A stretch of 48,494 nt of DNA, from the NCBI GenBank assembly GCA_017883185.1, contig JADGOB010000013.1:1-48494 (forward strand), written 5' to 3'. Made by a program: the position numbers and the translations under genes. The DNA comes from Acidobacteriota bacterium (GTDB lineage Bacteria; Acidobacteriota; Vicinamibacteria; Vicinamibacterales; Fen-181). The notes below the pieces were generated by a model. That model was not told the origin of the DNA. It did not search any database and saw only the letters and a list, made by a program, of their open reading frames with translations. How positions within the stretch are numbered: position 1 is the first letter of the stretch; each line of letters opens with the position of its first letter. This document shows, one piece after another, positions 28,866 through 32,290 of this stretch.

Positions 28866-30692
28866 TCACTCCCATTCGATTGTGCCTGGCGGCTTGGACG
28901 TCACGTCGAGTGCCAGGCCGCTCACGCCCGGCAGCGCGAGGATGCCCTTTCGCAGTTCCTCGACCAGCGCATCGGGCAGCGCCGCAGGGGTTGCTGTCAT
29001 CGCGCGCTCGGAGTGGATGGGTCTCACGATGACCAGCTCGCGACCGGCTCCATCGAGCTCGAGCGGGACGAGGACCGTCGGGCACTGCCAGATCGTGTCG
29101 TAGAGACCGTGGCGTTGCAGGCCATCCATCACGATCGCATCGGCTTCACGCAGCAGGTCCAGGCGTTCGCGCGTCATCCCCGCGGCCAGCGGCCGCGCGG
29201 ACGAGGGGAACGCGGGTCCGAGGTTCCAGATGCAGCGATTCAGGCCGGGGACCTGCTCGAGGATCATCCCGACGGCTTCGACCAGGCGATCCCACGGGAC
29301 CTGCCCACCAAGCATCACCGGGTGTTCGTAGGCCCGGAGATCGGCTTTCACGCCGACCGACCGGATAGGCAACGTCAGCGCCTGGATTCCGTAACGGGCG
29401 GCCAACGCCTCGACCTGCGGCTCGATCTCGGCAAATCCCTCGCGGTCCTCGGCGCCGCCCGAGCAGAGGAGACGCACGCCGAGACCCGGACCCGGGAACG
29501 GGTGGCGCCAGATCATGTCGTGCGGGATGCCGAGCTGCTCCCCGAGTTCCCGCACTTCAACCTTGTAGAGTTCCGCGAGCGGTTCGACGACGCGGCCCGC
29601 CTCGATCATCCGCTCGATGACCGGCACGCGGTTGTGATGCGTCTTGATCGTGTCCGCCCGCTTCGTCCCGCCCGTTTCGATCGTGTCGGGATAGATCGTG
29701 CCCTGGCCGAGCAGATGATCCTCGATGCCGAGCCGGCGCGCTTCGCGCTCGAACACCTCCACGAAGGTGTCGCCGATGATCTGCCGCTTCCGCTCCGGCT
29801 CGCTGACACCCTCCAGCGCCTTCAGGAACACGTCGCCCGCGTCCACGAAGTGGAGATGCTCGCCGAGGCCGAGCGACTGGAGCATCCCGATGACGGCGCG
29901 GCTCTCTTTCTTGCGCATCAGCCCGTTGTCCACGTGCAGCAGGTGCAGGCGTTCGGGACCGATCGCCAGGCCGAACAGCTTCGCGGCGACCGTAGAGTCG
30001 ACGCCGCCCGACGCGAGGAGAAAGACGGAACGATGGCCAACCTGGGCGCGCACGCGCTCCACCTGCTCCTCGAGATACCGTTCCATCGTCCAGGACGGCG
30101 TGCAGCCGCAAATCCCGAGGACGAAGTTGGCGATCATCTCGTGGCCGTGGACCGTGTCGTCCACTTCCGGGTGGTACTGGAAGCCGTAGCGGCGGTAGCG
30201 GTCAGACCCGATGGCCGCGTAGCGGTGGCCGCCGCCCTCGCTCTCGCCGAGCATGGTGTAGCCGAGTTCCTCGAAGCCCTCGCCGACGCTGACCACCGAA
30301 TCGAAGTGGCTCATGAAGACCGGCTCCACCGGGGCCAGGCCCCGGAAGAGCGGGTGGTCGCGGACGATGTGCAGGCTGGCTCGGCCCCACTCGCGACCGC
30401 CGTGCACGACCTGGCCGCCGTAGTGCTTCGCGATCTCCTGGTGGCCGAAGCAGAACCCGAGGATCGGGGTGTCGAGGTCGTAGATCGCCTTGGTATAGCC
30501 CGAGTCCTCGCCGAATGACGAGAAACTCGGGCTGCCCGACAGGATGATCCCTTTGTAGCCGGAGAACATCTCGATCGGATCCTCCGGCTGACGAATCTCC
30601 GCGAGGACGCGAAGTCGGCGCACCTTGGTGGCAATCAGGTGCGCGTACTGTCCGCCGAAATCGACGACGGCGATCGTGTCGTGCCGGCTCAT
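28866..30692 (-). CDS. guaA: GMP synthase (glutamine-hydrolysing)
   Basis: GuaA converts XMP to GMP with ATP and glutamine. The N-terminal class I amidotransferase has its triad at Cys81 (GFCFGHQE), His174 and Glu176 (YHPEVDDT). The ATP-pyrophosphatase domain has the P-loop LLASGGVDST (about 226-235) and the C-terminal dimerisation domain ends with the canonical TSKPPGTIEWE. At 608 residues it is about 80 longer than the E. coli enzyme (525); extra sequence lies in the dimerisation domain around PAFPSSARPLAAGMTRERLD. The ATG at 30692 overlaps the stop of a 32-codon pentapeptide-repeat gene (ATGA) and has only a weak ribosome-binding site, so translation is probably coupled. Confidence 0.96.
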   Translation of the reverse strand: MSRHDTIAVVDFGGQYAHLIATKVRRLRVLAEIRQPEDPIEMFSGYKGIILSGSPSFSSFGEDSGYTKAIYDLDTPILGFCFGHQEIAKHYGGQVVHGGREWGRASLHIVRDHPLFRGLAPVEPVFMSHFDSVVSVGEGFEELGYTMLGESEGGGHRYAAIGSDRYRRYGFQYHPEVDDTVHGHEMIANFVLGICGCTPSWTMERYLEEQVERVRAQVGHRSVFLLASGGVDSTVAAKLFGLAIGPERLHLLHVDNGLMRKKESRAVIGMLQSLGLGEHLHFVDAGDVFLKALEGVSEPERKRQIIGDTFVEVFEREARRLGIEDHLLGQGTIYPDTIETGGTKRADTIKTHHNRVPVIERMIEAGRVVEPLAELYKVEVRELGEQLGIPHDMIWRHPFPGPGLGVRLLCSGGAEDREGFAEIEPQVEALAARYGIQALTLPIRSVGVKADLRAYEHPVMLGGQVPWDRLVEAVGMILEQVPGLNRCIWNLGPAFPSSARPLAAGMTRERLDLLREADAIVMDGLQRHGLYDTIWQCPTVLVPLELDGAGRELVIVRPIHSERAMTATPAALPDALVEELRKGILALPGVSGLALDVTSKPPGTIEWE

Positions 30693-30787
30693 CGTGCGAA
30701 TCCGACCGTGTCGGTCGTCTTCGCGCCCTTCAGGTCGGCCTGGTAGAGATTCGTGTCGGTCATGTTGGCGTTGGTCAGGTCTGCCAT
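30689..30787 (-). CDS. 32-residue pentapeptide-repeat micro-gene coupled to guaA
   Basis: The minus strand encodes MADLTNANMTDTNLYQADLK followed by GAKTTDTVGFAR. The five-residue units ADLTN, ANMTD, TNLYQ, ADLKG fit the pentapeptide-repeat pattern A[DN]LxX, i.e. about one and a half coils of a right-handed beta-helix. A GGAGG sits 4 bases upstream of the ATG, an in-frame stop lies upstream at a TAG about 21 bases away, and its TGA overlaps the guaA ATG. A GACCG/CGGTC hairpin lies in its last codons. It could be a genuine small protein, a leader peptide that sets guaA translation, or the last remnant of a longer pentapeptide-repeat gene. Confidence 0.6.
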   Translation of the reverse strand: MADLTNANMTDTNLYQADLKGAKTTDTVGFAR

Positions 30788-30865
30788 AAGCCTCCAGTGA
30801 GCGCAAGACTACTGCGTACGATAGCCCGACCACCAGCCGACGGCAACAGGCAACGCGCCTCGTCG

Positions 30866-32290
30866 CTATCTGGACGTCCGCAGGCCCGTGTGCTGTCCGA
30901 TCCAGCTGGCCAGCAGGTCGAGGAATCCCGGGACGAACTCCTTCTTCAGCGTGGCGTACTCGCTCGCGCTGCCGGTGTTCGCCTCCTGGTAGAGATGGTT
31001 GGCGCTGGGCAGCACCACAATCCGGTGGTCGTTGTGTCCGCTCTTTGCAAAGACCTCTTCCATCGCCTGGCGGTTCGCAGCGACCGGGACCTGGAGGTCC
31101 TTCTCGCCGAAGATCGCCAGTACCGGCACCGTGACCTTCGCCAGGGTGGGCGCCGGATCGTAGTCGAGGAAGTACTTGAACCACGGCGTGCGGACGAGCG
31201 CCACCTGCGCGGCCATCTGCTGGCGCGCCGCCGTCTGCCGGTCGCCGATGGCCTTGCGCTGCGCCTCCGGGAGCCTTGCCAGGGCCGCTGCTGACAGTCT
31301 TTCGCCGGCCTCAGCCACCGCTTCCCAGCCAGTGCCGGAGCGGACCGCGGCGAACATCTGGCGCTGCAGGTCGGCGTTCGCCCGGATCTGCTCCTCGGGG
31401 ATGTGCTCGGCCTTCGCGATCAGTTCCGCCTGCGCCAGCATGATTCTCTCGCCGGTCAGCGCCGAACCCGACATCAGGACGATGAAAGCGACGTCGTTCG
31501 ACTTCGCCGCGACCATCGGTGCGATGAGCCCACCCTCGCTGTGGCCGAGCAGGCCGATGTGGGTCTTGTCGATGTCCGGCCGCGCCTTGAGGAACTGCAC
31601 CTCGGCCAGCACGTCTTCGGCGAAGTCGGCCGACGTCGCCTGCGCCGTGTTGCCGGTGGAGCCGCCCACGCCGCGATCGTCGCAACGCAGGACCGCGATG
31701 CCCGCCCGTGTCAGGTGATCCGCGATCACTTTGAACGGCTTGAAGCCGAAGAGCTCCTCGTCGCGGTTCTGCGGGCCGCTGCCGGTGATGAGCACCACCG
31801 CTGGGTGCGGTCCGCCGGCCGGCGGGACCGTGAGCGTCCCGGCGAGGGAGATGGCACCCGCCTGGATCTTCACTTCTTCCTGTTTGTACGGAGGTGGCGG
31901 GTCGGGCGCCGGGGCCGCACCACCGCGCTTCGCCTCGAATGTCCCCTTCACCAGGCCCTGCTCGAACGTGCCCGACATGATGTCGGCCTTGATCTCTCCA
32001 TCGAAGATGGCCAGGGTCGGACCGGCTGGCAGCTCGAAGTGCGCCCGGGCTCCATCTGCGCGGACGTTGCGGAGGGGCAGGCCCGATGCACCCTGCTGCG
32101 GGATGTCGATGGTGGCGGCGAGTGCCGGGCCCTCCCCGGTGAAGACGATGACGATGCCGAGCTCCCGGCCCATCACTTTGATGGCGCCCTCCCACCGGCC
32201 CGCGACCGTCTGGGCGCCCGCCGAGAGCGGCCAGAGGATCCCGCACGACAGCAGCGCGAGGAGGAACGCGTTCCCACGAAACATGTCCAA
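30866..32290 (-). CDS. secreted alpha/beta-hydrolase (EstD-like serine esterase/peptidase)
   Basis: A 474-residue exported protein (signal peptide ending ...PLSAGA, about residue 26). Residues 28-125 form a beta-rich N-terminal domain (GRWEGAIKVMGRELGIVIVF), then a Pro-rich linker, then an alpha/beta-hydrolase domain. The catalytic triad is recognisable as Ser251 in LLGHSEGG, Asp397 in FGEKDLQVP and His431 in SANHLYQ, with the oxyanion strand LITGSGPQNRDEE. This architecture matches EstD-like carboxylesterases. It starts 9 bases after the DUF5808 gene and forms the last gene of the GntR operon. Confidence 0.88.
   Translation of the reverse strand: MDMFRGNAFLLALLSCGILWPLSAGAQTVAGRWEGAIKVMGRELGIVIVFTGEGPALAATIDIPQQGASGLPLRNVRADGARAHFELPAGPTLAIFDGEIKADIMSGTFEQGLVKGTFEAKRGGAAPAPDPPPPYKQEEVKIQAGAISLAGTLTVPPAGGPHPAVVLITGSGPQNRDEELFGFKPFKVIADHLTRAGIAVLRCDDRGVGGSTGNTAQATSADFAEDVLAEVQFLKARPDIDKTHIGLLGHSEGGLIAPMVAAKSNDVAFIVLMSGSALTGERIMLAQAELIAKAEHIPEEQIRANADLQRQMFAAVRSGTGWEAVAEAGERLSAAALARLPEAQRKAIGDRQTAARQQMAAQVALVRTPWFKYFLDYDPAPTLAKVTVPVLAIFGEKDLQVPVAANRQAMEEVFAKSGHNDHRIVVLPSANHLYQEANTGSASEYATLKKEFVPGFLDLLASWIGQHTGLRTSR

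Follow-up and report, generated by a model that had tools for sequence, protein, structure and literature searches.

The 32-codon micro-ORF directly upstream of guaA in the window (the whole stretch of DNA analyzed here, 48,494 nucleotides) is, with a probability of about 90%, an in-frame internal-deletion remnant of a gene for a 119-residue pentapeptide-repeat protein, which stands directly before guaA in one sub-lineage. Comparison with relatives that have the intact gene (G003, G004 and G050) establishes, at the level of sequence, the remnant relationship, the exact junction, the frame and the polarity of the change; slippage as the mechanism of the deletion we infer. The features on which the argument turns are:

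30689-30787, minus strand: micro-ORF (remnant), 32 codons, defined by its reading frame and by alignment to G003
28866-30692, minus strand: guaA, which encodes a glutamine-hydrolysing GMP synthase of 608 aa and shares 4 nt with the remnant
30791-30795, minus strand: Shine-Dalgarno sequence GGAGG of the remnant, the same in G003 and present in G004
30774-30781, minus strand: junction of the deletion, marked by the one copy of GACCTGAC left in the window; the two G003 copies are 261 bp apart
30818-30846, minus strand: promoter-like element TTGCCG-N17-TATCGT, read by eye and tentative

The micro-ORF translates as MADLTNANMTDTNLYQADLKGAKTTDTVGFAR*; the last base of its GGAGG lies 3 nt from the ATG, and its TGA overlaps the guaA ATG (30690-30692) in a 4-nt ATGA at 30689-30692. 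Residues 2-22 match the PF00805 Pentapeptide profile (27.0 bits, E = 3.2e-6) above its gathering score of 20.2; thus, the repeat pattern is not due to chance. The initial annotation had described a tiny ORF with a GGAGG, an ATGA overlap and pentapeptide repeats, and that description is correct. It was also right that guaA lacks a good binding site of its own: the best one is a GGA at -11 with a computed duplex of -3.3 kcal/mol, as compared to -8.7 kcal/mol for the GGAGG of the micro-ORF.

Where does such a short run of repeats come from? The relatives compared included four further species in the genus and two other genera in the family. In G003, in which GuaA is 98% identical to that of the window, an intact pentapeptide-repeat gene of 119 codons, reading MADLTRTDVVKILAVTEHARLAGVDLSGLDLHGLNFAGADL...GADLTNANMTDTNLYQTDLKGAKTTDTVGFAR, occupies the same site, with ACTGGAGGCTTATGG again as start context, an identical binding site and, as in the window, a stop that overlaps the guaA start in an ATGA; its product scores 115.9 bits against PF00805. 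G004 has an intact orthologue of equal length (69% amino acid identity) at the same site and keeps the ATGA overlap, and a third full-length, 119-aa copy is found in G050, which belongs to another family in the order and in which guaA does not follow. These three are the clear full-length copies among 193 genomes of the class that were searched. The intact orthologues give dN/dS ratios of about 0.19-0.36, calculated from synonymous distances that are high and rough, a range to be expected of real genes. Because intact copies exist in G004 and G050, full length is ancestral and the deletion is derived. Among the genomes examined, the pairing of a pentapeptide ORF with guaA is confined to the window, G003 and G004; no pentapeptide ORF precedes guaA in G001 and G002 (same genus), G005 and G006 (same family), or G007, G054-G057, G059 and G072 (same order). 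A general linkage of pentapeptide genes to guaA was considered and rejected, as the G050 copy does not lie before guaA. A literature search for pentapeptide repeats together with guaA returned only papers that, by title and abstract, are unrelated.

Aligned to the G003 gene, the window lacks a single block of 261 bp (87 codons). In G003, a copy of GACCTGAC stands at either end of this block, at gene offsets 6 and 267. What remains is a 5' end of at most 4-5 codons joined to a 3' end of about 28 codons of the ancestral 119-codon gene. A search of the genome to which the window belongs (G000) did not find the missing segment at another site; the sole match to the long protein there is the 31-residue remnant. 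The structure of the gene itself may explain how this came about: pentapeptide repeats reuse codons (e.g., GCC GAC CTG), and this reuse makes the gene rich in short direct repeats, all in one frame. Indeed, the G003 gene has 25 pairs of 8-base direct repeats, every one of them in frame and the pair used at the junction among them; the same is true of 12/12 pairs in the G004 gene and 23/23 in the G050 gene. Slippage or annealing between the GACCTGAC copies (codons 3-5 and codons 90-92) would remove 261 bp, or 87 codons, while sparing the start codon, the binding site, the last repeats and the stop/start overlap.

Little of the protein is likely to have survived this event. AlphaFold2 models, which are single-sequence predictions for both proteins, give the intact G003 protein a pLDDT of 81 and a pTM of 0.72, with regular short strands about every five residues; it also matches solved pentapeptide-repeat proteins and is predicted to be a repeat β-helix. 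The remnant is modeled with a pLDDT of 62, a pTM of 0.12 and zero strands, and so does not form a right-handed quadrilateral β-helix in the model. One coil of the β-helix takes four repeats; the usual definition of the family asks for eight or more (PMC8145042). To judge from the models, the remnant peptide is too short for a β-helix and probably has no protein function; the original function of the protein has likely been lost.

Could the micro-ORF nevertheless be a product of selection? The initial annotation suggested a GMP-synthesis leader or a small partner of GuaA, and a regulator of guaA that arose in this short form, be it a conserved micro-protein or a GMP-responsive leader peptide, would account for the good binding site, the ATGA overlap and the weak guaA start. 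A short ORF conserved upstream of guaA is what this idea predicts and what the annotation proposed to look for; the short form is absent from the other relatives examined, which have either the full-length gene, in place in two congeners, or, in the 11 relatives listed above, no pentapeptide ORF before guaA at all. A full-length gene in relatives, marking the micro-ORF as a remnant, was the very outcome that the annotation had named as fatal to its proposal, and G003 and G004 present it. With full-length orthologues at the same position, a leader or a dedicated GuaA partner was rejected as the primary reading and is now very hard to credit. A weaker form of the idea holds that the 32-codon frame has been kept by selection since the deletion, either as an obligatory translational feeder for guaA or as a micro-protein with a new role. 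This is unlikely. Since all 25 repeat pairs are in frame, keeping the frame needs no selection, and an intact frame by itself does not point to a selected micro-protein. In the 99 bp that are left, three positions are not as in G003 (two synonymous, one not), too few for a test of selection.

The other way to dispense with a deletion is to blame the assembly: the organism would have the full-length gene, and the contig would have lost 261 bp. The deletion form is known from one genome, a fragmented assembly of 395 contigs, and nearby there is another difference in length, of 104 bp; both speak for an artefact. Against it, the junction is that of a classical microhomology deletion, and a search of the other contigs did not find the missing segment. 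Joining reads at 8-base overlaps is not what short-read assemblers usually do, and an assembly error is therefore possible but improbable. The second length difference is in the leader at about 30806 (minus strand), between the hydrolase gene and the remnant, which is 104 bp shorter than its G003 counterpart and means that the region differs from G003 in more than one way. The α/β-hydrolase gene itself (30866-32290, minus strand) has about 80-91% nucleotide identity to G003, as compared to about 98-100% for guaA. A chimeric contig, with an abrupt change of identity at the junction, was also considered and rejected: sliding identity to G003 declines gradually, from about 0.98-1.0 in guaA to 0.96, 0.93 and then 0.80-0.91 in the upstream hydrolase, with no sharp breakpoint.

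If the micro-ORF is a deletion remnant, does guaA still depend on it? The decayed gene may serve as a feeder: the peptide would have no role, ribosomes would initiate at its strong site and reinitiate at the ATGA to translate guaA, and only in-frame deletions would be tolerated. This possibility, which adds to the deletion-remnant explanation and is not its competitor, stands at roughly even odds. In its favor, the promoter-like element, the binding site and the overlap have all been kept, and 4-nt overlaps coupled translation in 13 of 14 tested pairs (PMC6728339). Furthermore, in all three genomes that have the upstream gene (the window, G003 and G004), guaA is preceded only by a GGA at -11 and by no -10-like box. 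On the other side, the repeat structure alone would lead one to expect retention of the frame, and a single deletion event is known. In 8 of the 11 relatives without an upstream pentapeptide gene (L019, L021-L027), the guaA start has a -10-like TAnnnT box 14-18 nt ahead of it, which suggests that guaA there has its own promoter and a leaderless or nearly leaderless transcript. The promoter-like element reads TTGCCG-N17-TATCGT in G003 and TTGCCC-N17-TATCGT in G004, in each case upstream of the pentapeptide ORF; a promoter scan requiring 9 of 12 consensus bases found none, the element read by eye having 8 of 12, below this threshold. Dependence of guaA on transcription and ribosomes arriving via the upstream ORF, through termination-reinitiation, is the simplest reading of these start regions and has about one chance in two of being correct. 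Coupling stays plausible because the argument applies just as well to the intact gene of G003 and G004; the property would have been inherited from that gene and not created by the micro-ORF.

The synthase and its surroundings have peculiarities of their own. GuaA in the window is of a long, divergent 608-aa type, and its alignments to solved GMP synthases cover mainly residues 4-414; in the order, 15 of 162 genomes have a match to this type at E ≤ 1e-100. One relative, G005 (L012, L014; G005:C63), seems to have two GMP synthases: one, 79% identical, is of the 608-aa type, and the other is matched at 43% identity, in two separate pieces. In G002 (L026), the region directly before guaA is taken up by CAGCCGACAGCCGC-type repeats in tandem.

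As a deletion remnant, the micro-ORF is of little importance by itself. It is one case of the shrinking of a repeat-encoding gene in frame via its own direct repeats. It carries a warning: what stands out as a micro-ORF with a good binding site may turn out to be an ordinary gene that has suffered an internal deletion. And if guaA does depend on the remnant, a dead gene would have been kept for its translation-start signals.

How does the remnant compare to known systems? Like its full-length orthologues, it matches the PF00805 profile; unlike them, it has only about five repeats, against the at least eight of the usual definition (PMC8145042), for which the orthologues have enough, and no confident fold. 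Among NCBIfam models, that of the Alr5209 family (NF052603; PDB 6omx), whose members are of similar small size, fits the intact G003 protein best, but the score of 83 bits does not reach the curated cut-off, which is 125 bits. The protein is therefore not assigned as a member, and the remnant has no match at all. Translationally coupled pairs are recognized by a 1-nt or 4-nt same-strand stop/start overlap, and the window, G003 and G004 all have one; as in overlapping pairs coupled by termination-reinitiation (PMC6728339, PMC10666635), the 4-nt ATGA joins a strong upstream start to a weak downstream start. Here, in contrast to those pairs, it is a truncated gene that stands upstream, and its coupling to guaA is a prediction from the sequence.
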